The notes under the pieces were generated by a model. The model worked only from the letters and a program-made list of their open reading frames with translations. It searched no databases and was not told the origin of the DNA. A stretch of DNA of 55,716 nt from Armatimonadota bacterium (lineage in GTDB: Bacteria > Sysuimicrobiota > Sysuimicrobiia > Sysuimicrobiales > Sysuimicrobiaceae). This document shows positions 46,069 to 55,716 of the stretch, in pieces. Every line of letters starts with the position of its first letter. Within the stretch, counting starts at the first letter, position 1. The stretch spans positions 1 to 55,716 of the forward strand of contig JANXBY010000058.1 of the NCBI GenBank assembly GCA_025060455.1. Reading direction: 5' to 3'. The position numbers were made by a program, and so were the translations under genes.

Positions 46069-46698
<630 letters not shown>

Positions 46699-46699
46699 C

Positions 46700-47188
46700 G
46701 TGAGCCGGCCCGGGTGGGACGACTACTTCATGAGTCTGGCGGCCCTGGCCGCCACCCGATCCACCTGCCTCCGCCGCCGGGTGGGCGCCGTGGTGGTGAA
46801 GGACCGCATGGTGCTGTCCACGGGCTACAACGACACCCCCCGCGGCCTCCGGAACTGCGGGGAGGGAGGGTGCGCGCGCTGCGCGGGGGACGCTCCCCCG
46901 GGGACCGGACACGACACCTGCCTGTGCATCCACGCGGAGCAGAACGCCATTCTGCAAGCTGCCTACCACGGCGTCGCGGTCGCGGGAGGTACCCTCTACT
47001 GCACCCACCAGCCGTGCCTCGCGTGTGCGAAGATCATCGCGAACGTGGGCATCGTACGGGTCGTCTACGGAGGAGCGTACCCGGACCCCTTCGCGTGGCG
47101 GCTGCTGGAAGACGCCAAGGTGGAGTTGGTGCAGTACCGGGGTGCCCTGGGCGCTCTGCATCTCGCCGCTCCGCCGGCAGGTGGCTGA
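46700..47188 (+). CDS. dCMP/cytidine deaminase (ComEB type)
   Basis: A 162-residue zinc deaminase. The Zn ligand and catalytic Glu lie in CIHAEQNAILQAA and the two Cys ligands in THQPCLACAKII. An additional Cys-rich insertion (NCGEGGCARC) is typical of dCMP deaminases, which make dUMP for thymidylate synthesis. The GTG start lies 1 base after the upp stop. It is the end of the rho-to-deaminase block. Confidence 0.93.
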   Translation: MSRPGWDDYFMSLAALAATRSTCLRRRVGAVVVKDRMVLSTGYNDTPRGLRNCGEGGCARCAGDAPPGTGHDTCLCIHAEQNAILQAAYHGVAVAGGTLYCTHQPCLACAKIIANVGIVRVVYGGAYPDPFAWRLLEDAKVELVQYRGALGALHLAAPPAGG

Positions 47189-47231
47189 AGGCGCCGCCGA
47201 CCAGACCCTGCCGCCACCTCGCGGAGGGTGA

Positions 47232-47246
47232 GACACCGGCGGTGTC
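47232..47246. terminator. Small GC hairpin after the dCMP deaminase gene
   Basis: GACACC-GGC-GGTGTC forms a 6-bp stem with a 3-base loop, 44 bases after the stop codon. No T-tract follows. It may mark the 3' end of the upp-deaminase message. The rest of 47189-47327 shows no gene. Confidence 0.3.
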
Positions 47247-47328
47247 GGCCCGCCGCCATGGGGCCGGCGACGTTTGGGCGATGCCCGAGCGGGTCTGGCC
47301 TCTCGCCACGCTCAGGGACACAGCTCGT

Positions 47329-47367
47329 TTTATCAGGTCTTAACCAAGCCGTGCACTCCAGTTAACA
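47329..47367 (+). promoter_or_regulatory. Pho-box-like array of four 6-base repeats at 11-base spacing
   Basis: TTTATC, TTAACC, GTGCAC and TTAACA begin at 47329, 47340, 47351 and 47362, each separated by exactly 5 bases. This matches the TT(A/T/C)A(C/T)A repeat arrangement bound by PhoP in Bacillus; the third repeat is degenerate. The array ends 10 bases before a weak TACCGG -10 position, an activator-type geometry. It lies 46 bases before the phoX ATG. Confidence 0.7.
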
Positions 47368-47413
47368 CGGCCGGAGTACCGGAGTCCCGGACTCTCTGGC
47401 AGGAGGTCAGCGG

Positions 47414-49342
47414 ATGGAACGGCTGCCGTTTCTGCAGATGTGTCGCTGGAAGTGTGGGTGGGCTTGCCGGACGGAGACTGCGAACCCCTCACAGGCCCCC
47501 ACGCTGGAGCAGGTACTGCAGGAAGCGTTCACCCGTCGAGAGTTTCTCCGCGGGATCCTCGGAGCGGCGATCGTCCTGGGCGTACCGGAGTGGTTCCGTC
47601 GGGCTGCGGAAGCCTCCGGGGGGACAGGGGTCCCGTTCATTCCGGTGGGACTGAGCCGGGACGATCGCGTGGCCGTGCCCAGCGGGTACCTGACGCGGGT
47701 GGTGGTGCGTTGGGGCGACCCGCTCTTTCGGGACGCACCGCCCTTCAACCCGGAGCGGCTTCAGCCAGAGGCACAGGCAACTCAGTTCGGATACAACTGT
47801 GACTTCGTGAGCTTCCTACCCCTGGGGCGGCGTGGGGGTGACCGGGGTCTGCTGTGGGTGAACCACGAGTACACCAACCCCGAGTTGATGTTCCCCGGGT
47901 ATCCGGCGGGCCGCCCGACTCGGGAGATGGTGGATGTGGAAATTGCGGCCCACGGGGGTTCGGTGGTGGAGGTACGGGCGGGTTCGGACGGGAACTGGGT
48001 GTACGTCCGGGAATCGCGCTTCAACCGTCGGGTCACTGGCGAGACGCTGTGCCTGATGACCGGACCAGCGGCCGGGCACGAGTGGACCCGGACACAGGAA
48101 GACCCTTCGGGAGTCCGGGTCCGGGGGACCCTGAACAACTGCGCGGGTGGGGTGACCCCGTGGGGTACGGTTCTGACGTGCGAGGAGAACTTCCACCAGT
48201 ACTTTGGGAACGCGGGACAGCTCCCCGCAGACGACCCCAGACGGCGGGTGCACGCGCGCTACGGGATCCCAGGCGGCGCCAGCGAACGCCGGTGGGAATT
48301 GCACCACCCGCGGTTCGACGTGGGCCGAGAGCCCAACGAACCCTTCCGGTTCGGGTGGGTGGTGGAGGTAGATCCGTACGACCCGACGTTCGTGCCGCGG
48401 AAGCGAACAGCCCTGGGCCGGTTCAAACACGAAGGAGCGACGGTGGTGGTGACGCGGGAACGGCGGGTCGTGGTCTACTCCGGAGACGATGAGCGGTTCG
48501 AGTACATCTACAAGTTCGTGTCCTCCAAGACGTTCCGGCCGGGGGATCGCGCTCACAACCTGACCCTCCTGGACGAGGGGACACTGTACGTGGCTCGGTT
48601 CTACCCGGACGGCACGGGCGAGTGGCTACCCTTGACCTTTGGCAACGGACCGCTCACCCCGGCCAACGGGTTCCGGAGCCAGGCAGATGTCCTTCTGAAC
48701 ACCCGGGGTGCCGCAGACCTCCTGGGCGCGACAAGGATGGATCGGCCGGAGGACATTGAGGCGCACCCGGTCACCGGAACCGTTTACGCGGTGTGCACCA
48801 ACAACGACCGCCGGACCCTGGCGCAGGTGGATCCCGCCAACCCGCGGGCGGTCAACCGCCATGGGCACATCCTGGAGATCTTTGAAGCCGGAGGCGACCA
48901 CGCGGCGACCCGTTTCCGCTGGCAGATCTTCCTCCTGTGTGGGAATCCGGCGGATCCCGACACGTACTTCGCGGGATACCCGAAGGAGCGCGTGAGCCCG
49001 ATCAGCTGCCCGGACAACATCGTCTTCGACCGCGTGGGCAACCTCTGGATCGCGACCGACGGACAGCCCGCCGCCCTCGGATACAACGACGGTCTGTACG
49101 TGGTGCCCGTGTCTGGCTCCCACCGGGGCCGGGTGTGGCAGTTCCTCAGCGGGCCCCTGGGCTGCGAGATCTGCGGTCCGGAATTCACTCCTGACTTCCG
49201 CACTCTGTTCGTGGCTGTCCAACATCCAGGCGAAGGGGGCACCTGGGAGCGTCCGCTCAGCCGGTGGCCGGACGGAGCCGTGCCGCCGAGACCCTCGGTC
49301 GTGGCGGTACGCCACCGGGAGGGGAGGGAAGTGGGGAGCTGA
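47414..49342 (+). CDS. phoX: PhoX-family alkaline phosphatase (DUF839), Tat-exported
   Basis: A 642-residue protein. TRREFLRGILGAAIVLGVP (about 37-55) is a twin-arginine signal. The mature part matches the PhoX beta-propeller: GYNCDFVSFLPL, LLWVNHEYTNPELMFPG, NNCAGGVTPWGTVLTCEENFHQYF (Cys and Glu metal-ligand region), DRPEDIEAHPVTGTVYAVCTNN and CPDNIVFDRVGNLWIATDG. PhoX enzymes use iron and calcium to release phosphate from organic esters outside the cytoplasm under phosphate starvation. The ATG follows CAGGAGGT, and an upstream Pho-box-like array plus the downstream PhoP/PhoR pair support regulation by phosphate. Confidence 0.92.
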   Translation: MERLPFLQMCRWKCGWACRTETANPSQAPTLEQVLQEAFTRREFLRGILGAAIVLGVPEWFRRAAEASGGTGVPFIPVGLSRDDRVAVPSGYLTRVVVRWGDPLFRDAPPFNPERLQPEAQATQFGYNCDFVSFLPLGRRGGDRGLLWVNHEYTNPELMFPGYPAGRPTREMVDVEIAAHGGSVVEVRAGSDGNWVYVRESRFNRRVTGETLCLMTGPAAGHEWTRTQEDPSGVRVRGTLNNCAGGVTPWGTVLTCEENFHQYFGNAGQLPADDPRRRVHARYGIPGGASERRWELHHPRFDVGREPNEPFRFGWVVEVDPYDPTFVPRKRTALGRFKHEGATVVVTRERRVVVYSGDDERFEYIYKFVSSKTFRPGDRAHNLTLLDEGTLYVARFYPDGTGEWLPLTFGNGPLTPANGFRSQADVLLNTRGAADLLGATRMDRPEDIEAHPVTGTVYAVCTNNDRRTLAQVDPANPRAVNRHGHILEIFEAGGDHAATRFRWQIFLLCGNPADPDTYFAGYPKERVSPISCPDNIVFDRVGNLWIATDGQPAALGYNDGLYVVPVSGSHRGRVWQFLSGPLGCEICGPEFTPDFRTLFVAVQHPGEGGTWERPLSRWPDGAVPPRPSVVAVRHREGREVGS

Positions 49343-49402
49343 GGAGGGAGGGAGGAGGCACCGCGTCCCGGTTGTCTACCCGCTCCGCGGTGGGATGTCA
49401 TC

Positions 49403-49439
49403 TCCGGCACGTCCCGCCGGCGAGGAGGCGGGTGCCGGG
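49403..49439 (+). terminator. GC hairpin downstream of phoX
   Basis: CCCGCC (49413-49418) pairs with GGCGGG (49427-49432) across an 8-base loop. The stem extends outward as TCCGGCA against TGCCGGG with a small bulge. There is no T-tract, so it may stop transcription weakly or protect the phoX mRNA 3' end. Confidence 0.45.
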
Positions 49440-49465
49440 CGCCCCTACGCGCGGGCCGCTGCGAA

Positions 49466-49529
49466 TCTCCGTCTGCCCTGGCCTTCCCCGTCCCACTTCC
49501 TAGACGGAGACCGGGGTTCGGGGTACGCT
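49466..49529 (+). promoter_or_regulatory. Promoter of the response-regulator gene with a 9-bp inverted repeat
   Basis: TAGACG (49501-49506) and TACGCT (49524-49529), 17 bases apart, form a promoter whose start would be at the ATG (49535), 5 bases further on. The -35 box lies within AGACGGAGA (49502-49510), the arm of an inverted repeat with TCTCCGTCT (49466-49474). This suggests a regulated, leaderless transcript. Confidence 0.5.
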
Positions 49530-49534
49530 TCCGT

Positions 49535-50236
49535 ATGGAGATGCAGCCGTACGGAGAGCCCTCCGCAGCCGCCCGGGTGCTGGTGGTGGAAGACGAGCGG
49601 CCGCTGGTCGACGCCATCCGGGTTGCGCTGGAACGGGAAGGTCACGTGGTGCTGACCGCACACGACGGTGCCTCGGGTCTGGAACGAGCGCTCCACGAAC
49701 CGGTGGACGTTGTCATTCTGGACGTTATGCTCCCCGGTATGAGTGGGTTCGAGGTGTGCCGGTTCCTGCGGCAGCGAAGCGATGTGCCCATCCTTCTGCT
49801 GACGGCCCGCGTGGACGAAACGGACCGAGTGGTGGGGCTCGACCTGGGTGCGGACGACTACATCACCAAGCCGTTCTCCATGCGGGAGCTCATGGCCCGG
49901 GTGCGAGCGGCCCTGCGGCGGAAGGGGCTGGCGCAGACGGCCAGGCTGGCTGTGGGCGACCTGGTGGTGGATCCCGCGCGGCACGAGGTGCGGTGCGGGG
50001 ACCGGGTGCTCCCCCTGAGTCCGAAGGAGTATGACCTCCTGGAAGTCCTGTCGCGACACGCCGGGCGGGTCCTCAGCCGCGGTCAGCTCCTGGAGCTGGT
50101 TTGGGGCTACGACTACGAGGGCGACGAGCGCACGGTGGACGTGCACGTGTCGTGGCTGCGGCGGAAGCTGCGGGAGGCGGGCTCCGCAGTGCGCATCGTG
50201 GCCGTCCGCGGGGTGGGCTACCGGCTGGAGCCCTGA
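49535..50236 (+). CDS. phoP: OmpR/PhoB-type response regulator (PhoP-like)
   Basis: A 233-residue regulator. The receiver domain carries VEDERPLVDAI (acidic pocket), the phospho-acceptor Asp in VVILDVMLPGMSGFE, and GADDYITKPFSMREL. The C-terminal winged helix (about 130-230) has LSPKEYDLLEVLSRHAGRVL, WGYDYEGDERTVDVHVSWLR and GVGYRLEP. It sits between phoX and a PhoR-like kinase, so phosphate control is inferred. ATG 49535 is preferred (see the promoter entry); ATG 49541 is an alternative. There is no ribosome site. Confidence 0.9.
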   Translation: MEMQPYGEPSAAARVLVVEDERPLVDAIRVALEREGHVVLTAHDGASGLERALHEPVDVVILDVMLPGMSGFEVCRFLRQRSDVPILLLTARVDETDRVVGLDLGADDYITKPFSMRELMARVRAALRRKGLAQTARLAVGDLVVDPARHEVRCGDRVLPLSPKEYDLLEVLSRHAGRVLSRGQLLELVWGYDYEGDERTVDVHVSWLRRKLREAGSAVRIVAVRGVGYRLEP

Positions 50237-50272
50237 CCGTCCCGCGAAGGCTCCACAGTCCCGGAGGTCTCC

Positions 50273-51562
50273 GTGAGCCCGTGGGTGTGGTGGGTGTGGG
50301 CACTGCCCGTGGCGGCGGCTGCCGTGTGGGCCTCTGTGTCGGGACCGCCGTGGGCCGCGGCCGCGGCGTGGGCCGCGGTCGCCGTCCTGGTGCTGGCAGG
50401 GTTGAGGGAGCGGACGTGGCGCCGGGCCATGCGCAGGGCGGCGCAGCAGGTGCGAGACGGCCGACCCGTGGAGGAGGACAACCCAGACGTCGCGGACCTG
50501 GCCGCGGCGGTGGAGTCGAGGCTTCGGGACCTCCGGGAAGGTTGGGAGGGGGCCCGGCGGGAGGCAGACCGGCTCCGGGAGGTGGTGGACAGCCTGCCCT
50601 GGGGCGTGGTGCTGGTTGACGGCCGGCGTCGGGTGGTCTGGATGAACCACTCTGCGGGGACGCTTTTGGGGGTGCATCGCGAACAGGCGCAGGACCTGTC
50701 TCCTGTCGCGATCTTCCGGCGGCACGAGGTCGACGACCTGCTGGAGCGCGCGCAGCAAAGAGGCGAAGCGACCCAGGACCTGGAGGGGGGCACCGTGCTG
50801 CGGGTGACGGTGCGGCAGCTGCGGTCGGGCGGGTTTGTGGTGGTGGTGCAGGACGTGACCTCCGACCGGCGCGCGGAGGCGGTGCGGCGAGACTTCGTGG
50901 CGAACGTGTCCCACGAGCTGCGCACCCCGCTGGCGTCCCTGCGAGCCATGACGGAGACGCTACGGGACGGCGGGCTGGAAGACCGGCAACTGGCAACCCG
51001 CTTCCTGGATCAGATGCTGCAGGAGGTGGACCGGATGAGCCGGCTGGTGAACAACCTCCTGGACCTCTCCGCCCTGGAGGCGGGCGTGGTGCGGTTGCGG
51101 TGGGAGGAGCTCCAAGTGGAAGCGCTCCTCGAGGCCGTGGTGAGGCGGTACGAACCCCTGGCTTCCCGGAAGGGCGTGAGCCTGGGGGTTCGATCCGGTG
51201 GGGAGCGGGTGTGGGGCGACCGGGAGCGCCTTGAGCAGGCCCTGGGCAACCTGGTGGACAACGCGGTGAAGTACACGCCCCCCGGCGGGCGGGTGGAGGT
51301 GGCGGCGGAGATCCGCGGCGACGAAGTCCACCTGGTGGTGGACGACACAGGCCCGGGCATCCCGGCCGAGCACCTGCCGCGGGTGTTCGAGCGGTTCTAC
51401 CGGGCGGACCCCGCCCGAAACCGAGCCGAGGGGGGGACAGGGCTAGGGCTGGCGATTACCAAGCACGTGGCCCTGGCCCACGGCGGCCGTGTGGAGGCGG
51501 CGAACCGGCCAGGGGGCGGTGCTCGGTTCGAGTTGGTGTTGCCCTCCCGCGCACGGCCCTGA
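50273..51562 (+). CDS. phoR: PhoR-like membrane histidine kinase with PAS domain
   Basis: A 429-residue kinase with two N-terminal membrane segments (about 4-22 and 27-46) and almost no extracytoplasmic loop, as in proteobacterial PhoR. A PAS domain (about 100-190) leads to the H box (FVANVSHELRTPLASLRAM, phospho-His near residue 218) and the ATPase domain: N box LGNLVDNAVKYTPPGGR, G1 VDDTGPGIP, F box FERFYRADPA and G2 GGTGLGLAITKH. The lack of a sensor loop suggests signal input from another protein, as from the Pst system. It lies 36 bases after phoP. Confidence 0.9.
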   Translation: MSPWVWWVWALPVAAAAVWASVSGPPWAAAAAWAAVAVLVLAGLRERTWRRAMRRAAQQVRDGRPVEEDNPDVADLAAAVESRLRDLREGWEGARREADRLREVVDSLPWGVVLVDGRRRVVWMNHSAGTLLGVHREQAQDLSPVAIFRRHEVDDLLERAQQRGEATQDLEGGTVLRVTVRQLRSGGFVVVVQDVTSDRRAEAVRRDFVANVSHELRTPLASLRAMTETLRDGGLEDRQLATRFLDQMLQEVDRMSRLVNNLLDLSALEAGVVRLRWEELQVEALLEAVVRRYEPLASRKGVSLGVRSGGERVWGDRERLEQALGNLVDNAVKYTPPGGRVEVAAEIRGDEVHLVVDDTGPGIPAEHLPRVFERFYRADPARNRAEGGTGLGLAITKHVALAHGGRVEAANRPGGGARFELVLPSRARP

Positions 51563-51578
51563 GCGCAGGGCGCGCGGG

Positions 51579-51607
51579 TTGTGGACTCCCGCGGGCCCTG
51601 CTATACT
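51579..51607 (+). promoter_or_regulatory. Promoter of the fluoride-riboswitch/crcB transcript
   Basis: TTGTGG (51579-51584) and TATACT (51602-51607) with a 17-base spacer place the transcription start near 51614, a few bases before the aptamer begins. Confidence 0.65.
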
Positions 51608-51619
51608 ACCTATGGTTTT

Positions 51620-51671
51620 GCGGCGATGGAGCTCGCCGGAACCGCCGCAGCCAGCGGCTGATGGCTCCTAC
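51620..51671 (+). ncRNA. Fluoride riboswitch aptamer (crcB motif)
   Basis: The sequence matches the fluoride-sensing crcB RNA. Stem GGCGA/TCGCC (51622-51626 with 51633-51637) carries the ATGGAGC loop, followed by GGAACC. The second stem is GCCGC/GCGGC (51644-51648 with 51654-51658). The conserved 3' segment is CTGATGGCTCCTAC. GGAGC (51628-51632) can pair with GCTCC (51664-51668) to form the pseudoknot. The downstream crcB gene encodes a fluoride exporter, which confirms the assignment. Confidence 0.95.
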
Positions 51672-51693
51672 CCGGCTCGGTAGGAGCTTTTTT
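51664..51693 (+). terminator. Intrinsic terminator of the fluoride riboswitch
   Basis: GCTCCTACC (51664-51672) pairs with GGTAGGAGC (51679-51687) around the 6-base loop CGGCTC, followed by six T (51688-51693). The 5' arm reuses the GCTCC that closes the aptamer pseudoknot. Fluoride binding and termination are therefore mutually exclusive: an ON switch. Confidence 0.95.
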
Positions 51694-51704
51694 GTTGCCG
51701 GGAC

Positions 51705-52076
51705 GTGAGGTACGCGCTCGTACTCCTCGGTGGCGCTCTGGGCGCGCTGGCCCGTTACGTGGTGGACGGGTGGGTGGTGAGTCGGCTTGACCTGGGCTTC
51801 CCGTTCGGGACCTTCGTGGTCAACGTGTCCGGAAGTTTCCTCCTGGGGGTGCTCTCTGTGCTCACCGCGGAGCGCCTCCTGGTGCCCTCGGAGTGGAGGT
51901 TGCTCCTGGGCGTCGGGGTGCTGGGGGCGTACACCACCTTCTCCACCTGGCAGTACGAGACCTTCCGGCTCCTGGAGGCCGGACAGTGGGGTGCAGGGCT
52001 GGCTAACCTCTTCGGCAGCGCCGGGGCCGGGTTCGCCGCACTTGCGCTGGGCGTGGTGGTTGGGCGCGCGCTGTGA
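51705..52076 (+). CDS. crcB: Fluoride exporter CrcB/Fluc
   Basis: A 123-residue protein with four membrane helices. GGALGALARYVVDGW, FPFGTFVVNVSGSFLLGVL and LGVLGAYTTFSTWQYETF are the Fluc signatures; the last includes the Phe-box and polar track residues. It forms a dual-topology dimeric fluoride channel that lowers cytoplasmic fluoride. The GTG start is 11 bases after the riboswitch terminator T-tract, with no strong ribosome site. Confidence 0.95.
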   Translation: MRYALVLLGGALGALARYVVDGWVVSRLDLGFPFGTFVVNVSGSFLLGVLSVLTAERLLVPSEWRLLLGVGVLGAYTTFSTWQYETFRLLEAGQWGAGLANLFGSAGAGFAALALGVVVGRAL

Positions 52077-52079
52077 GGC

Positions 52080-53672
52080 TCAGCGCCGGTCGGGCTGCGG
52101 GCGGTGGCGGTACAGGATCACCCGTACCTTCTCCAGGGTTACCAGTCCCTCTGTGATCATTTCGTCCAGGACCGGCAGGAAGCGTTCGATACGGTCTACT
52201 TCGTCTGCGATCTCCACCACCACGGGCAGGTCCTCGGAAAGGCGCAGGAGTTTCGCGGTGTGGATGCGGCTGCTGGCCCCAAACCCAGCGAGCCCGCGCA
52301 ACACGGTGGCGCCCGCCAACCCCATCTCGCGGGCCCGGAGCACGATCGCCTCATACAGCGGGCGGTCGTGCCACCGGTCCGACTCGCCCACGTAGACCCG
52401 CAGGAGCAGGCCTTCCTCGCTGAGCTTCATGGTGCCCCCCGGGCTGGATTCTCCGCCCACGCCGAGGGGCCCTGCGTCCCCGGCGGGGACCCCTCCACCT
52501 TGGGGCCGGGTGCGCGCGAACAGCAAGGCGGCGGCGACCTGCAGGGTCACCGCGAAGGCGGCCAGGTAGTCGGGGCGCAGGTCATACAGGACTCCCATGG
52601 CGGCGCTACCCGCGAACCACCCCGCCCCGTACACGGTGTGGAACAGTCCGAAGGCGGAGGCCCGGCGGTCCGGAGGAGCCATACGGGCCACCGCCGCGCG
52701 CAACACGGACTCCTGCAGCCCCATACCGGCTCCCCACAGGGCCATCCCGAACGCCGCTCCCACACCTCCTCCGAACACCACCAGCGGCGAAGCCGCTGCC
52801 GCCACCAGCGTCCCCAACGCCAGGACGGGTGTGCCGTGCCGGTCGAACCACCTCCCCAGCAACAGAGCTGCCCCCGCGTCGGTGGCCATAGCGACGGCGT
52901 ACAGGGCGGGGGTGGACGCGGCCGGCAGCAGCTCGCTCCGGCTGAGGTGGTAGGCCAGCAACGCGAAGTCGGGGAAGCCCGCCGCGAGCAGGGCCACGCC
53001 GAAGAGGTACCGTTTGGGAACGCGGGGGGACGCGCGACCCAGCTGAGCGGGCGGCCGCTCAAGTGCGGACGGGTGGGGAAGCTGCGCCCGCGCGCGGGCC
53101 AGCACCACCAGGCAGAGGACGGCGGGGGCCGCCAGGGCTGCAAACGCCTGGCGGAAACTTGCACCGGCGGCCAGCAGGCCTGCCACCCCCAGCGGACCGG
53201 CCACGGCTCCCACTTGGTCGAGGGCTTCATGCAGCCCGAAGGCCCAACCGGTGCCCAGCCGCGTCGCCGCGTGCGAGAGCATAGCGTCGCGGGGAGGTGT
53301 ACGGACGGCCTTGCCGGCACGCTCCAGGATCACCAGCGCCCCCGCGGGCTCCCAGCGGCCGGCCAGTGCCAGCGCGGGCACCGAGATCAGGTTCACCACG
53401 TATCCCCAGAACGTGAACGCCCAGTAGCGGCGCGTGCGGTCCGCCAGCCGGCCGGACACAAGCCGCAGGCCGTACCCGGCCAGTTCCCCAAGACCTGCCA
53501 CGAAGCCCACCGCGGTGGCCGAAGCTCCCAGGGCCAGCAGGTAGGGACCGAGAACGCTCCGGGCGCCCTCGTACGTGGCGTCCGCTAGCAGGCTGACAAC
53601 TCCCATCAGGAGCACGAACCGCGCCGCGGCGCGGTCCGCACGGTGCGGGGCAGAGGCCGGGGAGCGCTTCAC
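52080..53672 (-). CDS. MFS transporter fused to a C-terminal DUF190 domain
   Basis: A 530-residue protein. Residues about 15-400 form a 12-helix major-facilitator transporter (LLADATYEGARSVLGPYLL, GRLADRTRRYWAFTFWGY, TPPRDAMLSHA). From about residue 415, KLSEEGLLLRVYVGESDRWH through GASSRIHTAKLLRLSEDLPVVVEI is a complete DUF190 domain, a PII-like fold often encoded next to crcB. The internal ATG at 52430 has GGGGGG upstream, so a separate DUF190 protein (52430-52080) may also be made. The 3' end lies 4 bases from the convergent crcB stop. The GTG start overlaps the stop of the upstream gene (GTGA). The transported substrate is unknown. Confidence 0.85.
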   Translation of the reverse strand: MKRSPASAPHRADRAAARFVLLMGVVSLLADATYEGARSVLGPYLLALGASATAVGFVAGLGELAGYGLRLVSGRLADRTRRYWAFTFWGYVVNLISVPALALAGRWEPAGALVILERAGKAVRTPPRDAMLSHAATRLGTGWAFGLHEALDQVGAVAGPLGVAGLLAAGASFRQAFAALAAPAVLCLVVLARARAQLPHPSALERPPAQLGRASPRVPKRYLFGVALLAAGFPDFALLAYHLSRSELLPAASTPALYAVAMATDAGAALLLGRWFDRHGTPVLALGTLVAAAASPLVVFGGGVGAAFGMALWGAGMGLQESVLRAAVARMAPPDRRASAFGLFHTVYGAGWFAGSAAMGVLYDLRPDYLAAFAVTLQVAAALLFARTRPQGGGVPAGDAGPLGVGGESSPGGTMKLSEEGLLLRVYVGESDRWHDRPLYEAIVLRAREMGLAGATVLRGLAGFGASSRIHTAKLLRLSEDLPVVVEIADEVDRIERFLPVLDEMITEGLVTLEKVRVILYRHRPQPDRR

Positions 53673-54145
53673 GGTGCGGGTCGGAACCTCGTGATGTCCC
53701 GCCGAGGCTGGAAACGCGCCCGGACCTCCTGAGGGTCGCGGCCGCTGAGGACTTCCAGCGCCCGCAGCCAGCTGGCCGCCTGATCCTCGGTCAGGCCCTC
53801 GTGCCGGAAACGGTAGTCGTGCTTGCGCACCAGCTCCCCGAGGTCACCTTCCAGGCGGACGAGAGCTGGGCGGAGGTCCTGGAGCAGGCGCCTCAAGTCC
53901 CCTTCAGACTTCGACAGGGAGGCTGCCAGGATCAAGGGGGGAGCAAACAGGGCCGACGGACCGGCCAGGGCCCTGCGCACTTCGGGATCCGCCAGCCGAT
54001 CCAGCAGGGCCGCCAGGTAGGCCTTCGCCATGCGACAGGCGTGAACGGGATCCTGGCAGACGATGTCGACGCCCAGCACCGGGTTACGCTGCGCGGAGGG
54101 TCCCGCGCTGTCGGCTTGCTTGCCTGCCTCTTTCTCATGTACCAC
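53669..54145 (-). CDS. Hypothetical protein upstream of the MFS-DUF190 gene
   Basis: A 158-residue protein I do not recognise. It is mostly helical and charged, with a central hydrophobic stretch (GPSALFAPPLILAASLS) too short and polar-flanked to call a membrane helix confidently. No signal peptide or metal motif is seen. The GTG start lies 13 bases after a TAGCAT -10-like box on the minus strand. It is coupled to the MFS-DUF190 gene through GTGA, which suggests a shared function. An internal start near CRMAKAYLAALLD is possible. Confidence 0.6.
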   Translation of the reverse strand: MVHEKEAGKQADSAGPSAQRNPVLGVDIVCQDPVHACRMAKAYLAALLDRLADPEVRRALAGPSALFAPPLILAASLSKSEGDLRRLLQDLRPALVRLEGDLGELVRKHDYRFRHEGLTEDQAASWLRALEVLSGRDPQEVRARFQPRRDITRFRPAP

Positions 54146-54256
54146 CGGCGGCCCGCGGATGCTACAGTCAGCTCGGTGAGGGCCCAGCCAGCGCAGGGCG
54201 TGTGCGCAACTGAGCGGTCAACGCACCAGGGGGCGGAGCAGAGCCGGCAGGAACTC

Positions 54257-55716
54257 GTGAGCTACTCCCTGTCCAGGTGCGGGGCCGGGGTAGCCTCCGG
54301 GGTCCTCCTGGCTTTGAGTTTCCCTCACCCGGGCTGGTGGCCCCTTGCGTGGTTCGCCCTCGTGCCCCTGCTGCTTGCCCTACGCGGCCTGCCGCCGTCC
54401 AGGGCTGGGGGCGTGAGTTTCGCCTTCGGGCTGGGCTTCTACGGCCTCCTGCTCACGTGGCTGAACCGCCTGGGCGTCCCTGCATACCTGACCGTCGTGG
54501 CGGTGAGCGCCGCGTACTCGGCCGCGTTCGGTGTCCTCCTGTCCGCAGCATCCCGGGGCCGGGGCGACGGCCGGTTCCTCGTGGCCACCTGTCTTGCCTG
54601 GACCACCGTGGAGTGGCTCCGCGGGCTGGGAACCGCCTCCTTCCCCTGGGGGCTTGTGGGCTACTCGCAGTGGACCAACCTCCCGATCCTACAGCTCGCT
54701 TCCGTGGGCGGGGTGTACCTCGTCTCCGCCACGGTGGTGGCCGCCAACGCAGGGCTTGCGCTCCTCCTGCTGCGCAGGCCGCTCGGTGTGCTACCGCTTG
54801 TGCTGGTCGCGGTGGCGTGGAGCTGGGGAGAAGGACGGCTGACTTCCCAAAGCCCGGGCAGTGGCCCGCTCCTGCAGGTGGCGGCGGTTCAGCCCAACCT
54901 GGTGCAGCAGCGGAAGCTCGACCCAGACCACGCCTCCCTGACCCGTCAGACGCTGCTGGGGCTCACTGCGGAGGCGGTGCGCGCGGGGGCGCAGCTGGTG
55001 GTCTGGCCGGAGCACTACTGGCCGGACCCGCTGCTCCGCGGAGGCCGGCTGGACCCCGTGATCGGGAGAGCGGTCCCTGAAGGGGTGGCGCTGCTGGCCA
55101 CGGGGGAGATCGATGGGCACTGGAATTCTGCGTTGATGGTCGAGCGGGGGAGCGTGGTGGGCCGGCACGACAAGGTCCGGCTGGTGCCCCTGGGCGAGTG
55201 GTGGGCAGACCCCGGACCGGGCTACACGCCGGTGGACGCGCCCGGCGGACCTGCGGGGGTCCTGCTGTGCTACGAAGTGGTCTACCCGCAGGCCGCCCGA
55301 GCCCTGGTCCTCCGCGGGGCCCGCTACTTGATTCACTCGTCGGAAGAGGGCTGGTTCGGAGAGTCTGCGGGGCCCGTGCAGCACCTGGGCTTCGCGGTGG
55401 TGCGGGCGGTGGAACTGGGCCGGGACGTGGTGCGGGCGGCCAGCATCGGGATCTCCGGGATCATCGACCGCACGGGTCGCCTCCAGGCGCAGCTCCCGCA
55501 GGTGACGCAGGGGTGGGTCGCCGGTCGCATCGAGCCCCTATCGGATCTCACGCCCTACGCCCGGTGGGGAGACCAGTGGGTGTGGGCGGCTGCGGTGGTG
55601 CTGGGGGGGATGGGCTTCCCCGCCGTACTCCCATGGATGCGCCGGGAGGTGGTGGTGCCGTTCTTGCTCCCCGCGGCGGCCGTGGCCTTGGGACGGCTCT
55701 TCGGACTCGGCCCGTT
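54257..55716 (+). CDS. lnt: Apolipoprotein N-acyltransferase Lnt, 3' end beyond the window
   Basis: An open frame runs without a stop from at least 54176 to the last base, so the gene is truncated by the window edge. The N-terminal half has several membrane helices (GVLLALSFPHPGWWPLAWFALVPLLLALRG and later ones). The nitrilase-type catalytic domain then shows the full triad: Glu in VVWPEHYWPD, Lys in RHDKVRLVPLGEWW and Cys in VLLCYEVVYP. HSSEEGWFGESAGPVQHL is also typical. Lnt N-acylates lipoproteins at the outer face of the inner membrane. GTG 54257 fits the usual N-terminal length; GTG 54176, 7 bases after TACAGT, would be a leaderless alternative. Confidence 0.93.
   Translation, partial: MSYSLSRCGAGVASGVLLALSFPHPGWWPLAWFALVPLLLALRGLPPSRAGGVSFAFGLGFYGLLLTWLNRLGVPAYLTVVAVSAAYSAAFGVLLSAASRGRGDGRFLVATCLAWTTVEWLRGLGTASFPWGLVGYSQWTNLPILQLASVGGVYLVSATVVAANAGLALLLLRRPLGVLPLVLVAVAWSWGEGRLTSQSPGSGPLLQVAAVQPNLVQQRKLDPDHASLTRQTLLGLTAEAVRAGAQLVVWPEHYWPDPLLRGGRLDPVIGRAVPEGVALLATGEIDGHWNSALMVERGSVVGRHDKVRLVPLGEWWADPGPGYTPVDAPGGPAGVLLCYEVVYPQAARALVLRGARYLIHSSEEGWFGESAGPVQHLGFAVVRAVELGRDVVRAASIGISGIIDRTGRLQAQLPQVTQGWVAGRIEPLSDLTPYARWGDQWVWAAAVVLGGMGFPAVLPWMRREVVVPFLLPAAAVALGRLFGLGP

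Follow-up and report, generated by a model that had tools for sequence, protein, structure and literature searches.

The locus described here raises two questions: whether the leader of a crcB gene in the window (the whole 55,716-base stretch of DNA that was analysed) is a complete fluoride riboswitch controlling transcription, and whether the transporter gene that converges on crcB belongs to the fluoride response as well. An Rfam covariance scan of the window returned RF01734, the fluoride riboswitch family, as its sole match, on the forward strand at 51613-51677 (53.5 bits against a gathering score of 34; E 4.5e-12). The match was complete, spanning model positions 1-64 of 64, and RF01734 was matched only once in the 2,264,116 bases of the genome to which the window belongs. 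The complete fluoride riboswitch proposed by the preliminary description, which had named the Rfam model as a check, is therefore present, with every conserved aptamer segment found (Table 1). The span given there, 51579-51704, holds for the whole leader; the aptamer proper is narrower. Compared with the Rfam consensus pseudoknot (GGAGU/ACUCC), one pair has been swapped on both strands (GGAGC/GCUCC, U-A to C-G), so that pairing is kept. Minimum-free-energy folding of the aptamer alone, a method that cannot display pseudoknots, favoured an alternative pairing in the P3 region. In itself the riboswitch is an ordinary further example of a well understood class.

Table 1. Features of the crcB leader and its neighbours (window coordinates).
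Feature	Position	Strand	Evidence or remark
Response regulator (49535-50236) and sensor kinase (50273-51562)	49535-51562	+	Upstream of the riboswitch; ORF and profile evidence
Inverted repeat, arms 51565-51578 and 51588-51601	51565-51601		14-nt arms, 93% complementary, 9 nt apart
Putative promoter: TTGTGG 51579-51584, spacer 17, extended -10 TGcTATACT 51599-51607	51579-51607	+	Sequence
Fluoride riboswitch aptamer, RF01734	51613-51677	+	53.5 bits, full length
P1 hairpin, arms 51622-51625 and 51634-51637	51622-51637	+	cmscan structure line
Pseudoknot 5' strand GGAGC	51628-51632	+	Sequence; covariation
Conserved junction AACC	51640-51643	+	cmscan; both A invariant in 31/31 type-1 aptamers
Second aptamer hairpin (P3), arms 51644-51647 and 51655-51658	51644-51658	+	cmscan structure line
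Intrinsic terminator: stem 51663-51688, perfect arms 51664-51672 and 51679-51687, six T 51688-51693	51663-51693	+	Terminator scan, folding, inverted-repeat search
Pseudoknot 3' strand GCUCC, common to terminator 5' arm	51664-51668	+	Sequence; inverted repeat; covariation
crcB (Fluc fluoride channel), 123 aa, GTG start	51705-52076	+	PF02537, TIGR00494
MFS transporter (MFS_1) read in one frame into a DUF190 domain	52080-53672	-	Convergent with crcB
158-aa remnant of the longer CPVC-containing protein of relatives	53669-54145	-	Overlaps the MFS gene start

The pseudoknot 3' strand is also the start of a terminator. The terminator stem is an inverted repeat of 9 bp without mismatch, extended to 10 bp if an outer G-U pair is counted, which opens exactly at the pseudoknot 3' strand and is abutted by six T, as the preliminary description had stated in assigning GCTCC to both structures. 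The hairpin has a predicted energy of -17.5 kcal/mol (z -4.3), and none of 200 shuffles was equally stable. A loose terminator scan by itself found one site against 0.6 +/- 0.9 in shuffles, which is not beyond chance; the terminator stands beyond chance because it coincides exactly with the pseudoknot strand and is conserved among aptamers. U51669, which we take to be the counterpart of U48 in the Thermotoga petrophila aptamer and thus presumably the partner in the A40-U48 pair, also lies inside the terminator arm. Since both GCUCC and U51669 are part of this arm, the aptamer and the terminator are mutually exclusive.

Joint variation of the two structures was assessed in relatives. A search with RF01734 (E up to 0.001) of 61 genomes, comprising the window's own, 42 others from its order and 18 that are more distantly related, yielded 45 matches across 24 genomes. 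The covariation set consisted of 44 of these aptamers, from the own genome, its relatives and a few distant genomes; G005:C2 was left out because its pseudoknot strand could not be parsed. All five pseudoknot pairs were standard in 43 of the 44 aptamers, and 42 of the 44 had a terminator-like arm, defined by pairing of at least four of five positions with the pseudoknot 3' strand followed by at least three further pairs. Pseudoknot positions were paired in 217 of 220 cases (shuffle mean 201) and terminator positions in 209 of 210 (shuffle mean 195), values reached by none of 2000 label shuffles in either case; both figures lean upward, because the shuffles ignore kinship and the terminator arm was picked as the best-pairing site. 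With a cruder parse, the overlap was seen in 34 of the 40 readable aptamers among the 45. Most aptamers with the variants GGAGC/GCTCC, GAGGC/GCCTC and GAAGC/GCTTC were accompanied by a terminator arm matching their own 3' strand through standard or G-U pairs. The pseudoknot and the terminator thus vary jointly among relatives, as the published fluoride ON switch predicts. The available text of Hertz 2026 (PMC13273304) reports such covariation over many fluoride riboswitches, and its full-riboswitch model for RF01734 resembles the present leader in that one strand serves both pseudoknot and terminator stem, which covary. The energies of the terminators there range from -17.1 to -2.5 kcal/mol, which places the present hairpin at the strong end, the folding programs being different.

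The gene directly downstream is crcB. Its GTG start lies 11 nt past the T-run, and its product scored 102.3 bits against PF02537 (threshold 32.9) and 97.7 bits against TIGR00494 (cut-off 80.45). Because it is the only crcB in the genome, a CrcB homodimer would be expected by analogy with single-gene Flucs. The same arrangement, aptamer and terminator ahead of an 85% identical CrcB, was found in a genome of the same family (G006). A mobile origin of the crcB cassette was considered, and a search of a plasmid collection with 51560-52079 gave a single partial match, at 72%.

Taken with the architecture of published switches (shared strand, six T, crcB directly 3'), these features support the transcriptional ON switch for CrcB predicted by the preliminary description, and we regard this reading as highly probable. 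Fluoride binding, the direction of switching and export by CrcB are proposed by analogy with published fluoride riboswitches. RNA polymerase would begin at 51613 or close to it. If fluoride is absent, the terminator hairpin would, as it grows, take GCUCC from the pseudoknot, and transcription would stop in the U-run, short of crcB. Once Mg2+ and fluoride are bound, strand exchange would be withstood by the pseudoknot and the flanking long-range pair, allowing read-through into crcB, whose product would export fluoride. In the portions available of the respective papers, Weinberg 2010 (PMC2864571) notes that terminators often overlap the crcB motif and expects the ligand to raise expression, and Hertz 2024 (PMC11077080) describes aptamer and expression platform as mutually exclusive, the terminator breaking the pseudoknot unless fluoride is bound. 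The Bacillus cereus crcB riboswitch treated in PMC11077080 is alike in that the pseudoknot 3' strand forms the base of the terminator of an ON switch for crcB, as far as the text available describes it; the present leader differs in sequence, in its GC-rich lineage and in its long, strong terminator stem.

Where transcription of the leader begins bears on the best-surviving alternative, which is compatible with an ON switch: the riboswitch may be an attenuator without its own promoter inside a response regulator-kinase-crcB operon. The kinase stop lies only 50 nt upstream of the aptamer, and the order of regulator, kinase, riboswitch and crcB is kept in G006, where the regulator-kinase pair likewise precedes the crcB riboswitch. 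The putative promoter agrees with the consensus at just 8 of 12 positions, which is weak, and a promoter scan gave nothing above its cut-off at 51579-51607. Against this, an extended -10 precedes the aptamer both here and in G006 (TGcTAGAAT, similarly placed), a TTGACN...TATAAT-like pair spaced by 16-18 nt occurs upstream of many of the 45 aptamers, and a strong hairpin stands between kinase and aptamer. This hairpin corresponds to an inverted repeat that separates the kinase stop from the -10 and holds the putative -35, TTGTGG, in its loop; the region 51560-51612 folds at -31.2 kcal/mol (z -3.4), and an operator or a kinase terminator without a U-run are candidate roles for the repeat. On balance we consider a promoterless attenuator possible, at perhaps one chance in four.

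Far less probable is control of translation, in which the hairpin would mask the crcB ribosome site. The nearest purine-rich stretch, AGGAG (51682-51686), does fall within the terminator 3' arm, but it lies 18 nt before the GTG, which is far for a ribosome site, and six T follow the stem directly. Furthermore, the antiporter genes at L032 and L034 have a GGAGGT-like site of their own beyond the terminator, so that the hairpin there cannot act by masking. Least likely of all, and barely credible here, is a decaying, non-working switch such as the crcB leader of G005 seems to be, with only a remnant aptamer (16.7 bits with R1, the covariance model described below; GACGG for GATGG), since this locus retains all conserved aptamer segments and the pseudoknot together with a perfect terminator and an intact crcB. 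The G005 remnant lies at L158:5479-5543 before crcB and is itself apparently a decayed switch.

The place of the crcB switch among the switches of the order was examined. Among the 43 genomes of the order that were searched, a fluoride aptamer was found in 21, CrcB in 3, DUF190 in 3 and a CLC match in 6. The CLC gene of the own genome, G000:C19:2222-3255, is interrupted by a TGA, which may mark a pseudogene or a sequencing error. Neither CrcB nor CLC exceeded threshold in 14 of the 21 riboswitch-bearing genomes, a figure to which incomplete genomes may contribute. When the first reference gene downstream of each of the 45 aptamers was tallied (with Pfam names for the antiporter, Usp and MutS-domain genes), 14 aptamers preceded a Na+/H+ exchanger and 13 a small protein of about 133 aa leading an operon that often includes an MFS gene. 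A further 4 lay before a MutS-like protein, 1 before an MFS gene and 1 before a CPVC-containing protein, 3 before crcB (one of these outside the order), and 9 were without a clear target. In this order, crcB is the exception among fluoride riboswitch targets, most of the aptamers preceding antiporter, MutS-like or small-protein/MFS operons.

The 13 aptamers of the small-protein operons (L032:9623-9689, L034:2361-2427 and 11 others) keep the pseudoknot, GAUG and GAUR and lack the junction AA: the second A of the junction was present in 1 of these 13 (type 2) versus 31 of 31 others (type 1), the groups being set by the downstream gene. Aptamers without the AA junction are a possible variant class with changed binding.

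Comparison of gene order revealed how the window locus differs from its relatives. Two relatives, G001 and G003, share a layout that runs from a riboswitch through the small protein, p147, the CPVC-containing protein and MFS to another riboswitch, which precedes the antiporter, Usp and two MutS-like genes; a kinase and regulator follow on the opposite strand. The window retains a regulator-kinase pair on one side and the MFS gene with a CPVC-protein remnant on the other; the 158-aa remnant lacks both CPxC segments of the G001 copy. The antiporter operon is absent, with riboswitch-crcB in its place on the opposite strand, and the first riboswitch of the MFS operon and its small-protein genes are gone. 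No second aptamer upstream of MFS genes was found with Rfam at E up to 10 over 46500-54500, and R1 found nothing else above 10.3 bits across the window.

The MFS-DUF190 gene and crcB converge, with stops 3 nt apart and no terminator-like site between them. The convergent product scored 104.1 bits against MFS_1 (threshold 33.4), and its structural model (pLDDT 88.1) matched NorA, NupG and MdfA in Foldseek. The substrate cannot be read from the fold, because Foldseek matched many MFS proteins about equally. No NCBIfam model gave a family name above its cut-off, and the PDB held no sequence relative of the family. Fusion to DUF190 as a general feature was rejected: in G006 the two are separate genes, divided by a stop codon and an apparent ribosome site, and the long-looking DUF190 frame of G005 does not read upstream into MFS. 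A stop-free linker is not improbable in GC-rich DNA.

To what extent this MFS family accompanies fluoride aptamers was assessed in a search of 84,980 species genomes with an MFS alignment, which gave at least 507 confirmed relatives, of which the best 80 loci were kept. These loci, 1.17 Mb in all, were searched with R1, a covariance model derived from 44 of the total of 45 aptamers, at an E limit of 0.1 for the whole search. Aptamers were found within about 10 kb in 36 of the 80 loci (the best 80 of at least 507 relatives). Only 4 of the 36 came from the window's own order; outside it, the count was 32 of 76. At least 27 of these 76 reach the Rfam gathering score: the Rfam scan covered the 32 R1-positive loci, 27 of which attained it (12/13, 7/7, 6/7 and 2/5 in successive batches). 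For comparison, RF01734 matched once in the 2.26 Mb of the own genome and 45 times in 61 whole genomes. In a tree of 87 MFS proteins, the riboswitch label changed 15 times versus about 29 in shuffles, none of 500 being as low; the window and six extra relatives had been marked as linked by hand.

Linked members are labelled as belonging to at least eight bacterial phyla (Armatimonadota, Chloroflexota, Pseudomonadota, Bacillota, Acidobacteriota, Planctomycetota, Thermodesulfobacteriota and Myxococcota), as well as to Methanoperedens and a Jordarchaeia archaeon; many are metagenome bins. An aptamer lay less than 400 nt upstream of the MFS gene on the same strand in 12 of the best 80 loci, and only three of these sites (L079, L104 and L141) reached the Rfam gathering score. 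The remaining sites are variants that fall short of it, and several of them carry additional sequence separating P1 from the second hairpin. Aptamer-like sub-threshold sites directly upstream of MFS in Chloroflexota are L116:9824, L123:9854, L121:9827, L098:9823, L101:9764 and L140:6547. The window's own MFS gene has no aptamer upstream on its strand.

The link is not universal. CrcB was encoded in 11 of the best 80 loci, DUF190 in 12, an antiporter in 16 and MutSa in 17, and 42 of the 80 had neither an aptamer, CrcB nor tandem MutS, including whole clades such as Brocadia-like planctomycetes and cyanobacteria, which counts against an obligatory MFS-aptamer association. The idea that MFS simply substitutes for CrcB or CLC was not supported: among the riboswitch-bearing genomes of the order, MFS is found in 9 of the 14 that have neither CrcB nor CLC and in 5 of the 7 that have one of them, and the presence of CrcB in 11 of 80 MFS loci likewise speaks against it. 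In G004 (99% complete), CrcB and CLC were not found and the riboswitch operon is without an antiporter, so that MFS is the only transporter seen there under these switches.

Other fluoride operons offer partial parallels, in so far as the available text of each source describes them. The FRM fluoride operon of Enterobacter cloacae (PMC5533749) likewise has a riboswitch before crcB and adds stress genes including uspA, whereas in the present locus crcB is the sole gene under the switch and faces MFS-DUF190. Clostridioides difficile CD0656-7 (PMC11477304) combines a fluoride riboswitch with a Na+/H+ antiporter, as do the relatives here; it has CLC in place of crcB, and MFS is not named in the text available. 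A 2024 review (PMC11139923), in its accessible text, mentions no bacterial exporter besides Fluc and CLC-F and places antiporters next in frequency among riboswitch genes, with no occurrence of 'mfs' or 'facilitator'. Our literature searches returned no report of a link between MFS and fluoride riboswitches, which the supplement of Baker 2012 may list.

The convergent MFS-DUF190 gene probably takes part in the fluoride response, and the linkage suggests that the family may be an overlooked part of fluoride defence and a candidate fluoride-stress transporter. A tentative proposal, which we consider rather unlikely, is that the family contributes widely to the fluoride response without having been recognised, possibly as a proton-coupled fluoride exporter that would form a third bacterial system beside CrcB/Fluc and CLC-F. 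Fluoride as the transported solute would be a guess based on the linkage to riboswitches, and efflux of another solute under fluoride stress fits as well.

A role of the MFS protein in fluoride defence, if it has one, would go some way towards accounting for those riboswitch-bearing genomes of the order that have neither CrcB nor CLC, though only the 9 of 14 in which it occurs. The locus itself adds one clean riboswitch example from a lineage that has been little studied. More broadly, one MFS subfamily adjoins fluoride riboswitches across many phyla, and the interest of the finding lies in this transporter family rather than in the riboswitch.
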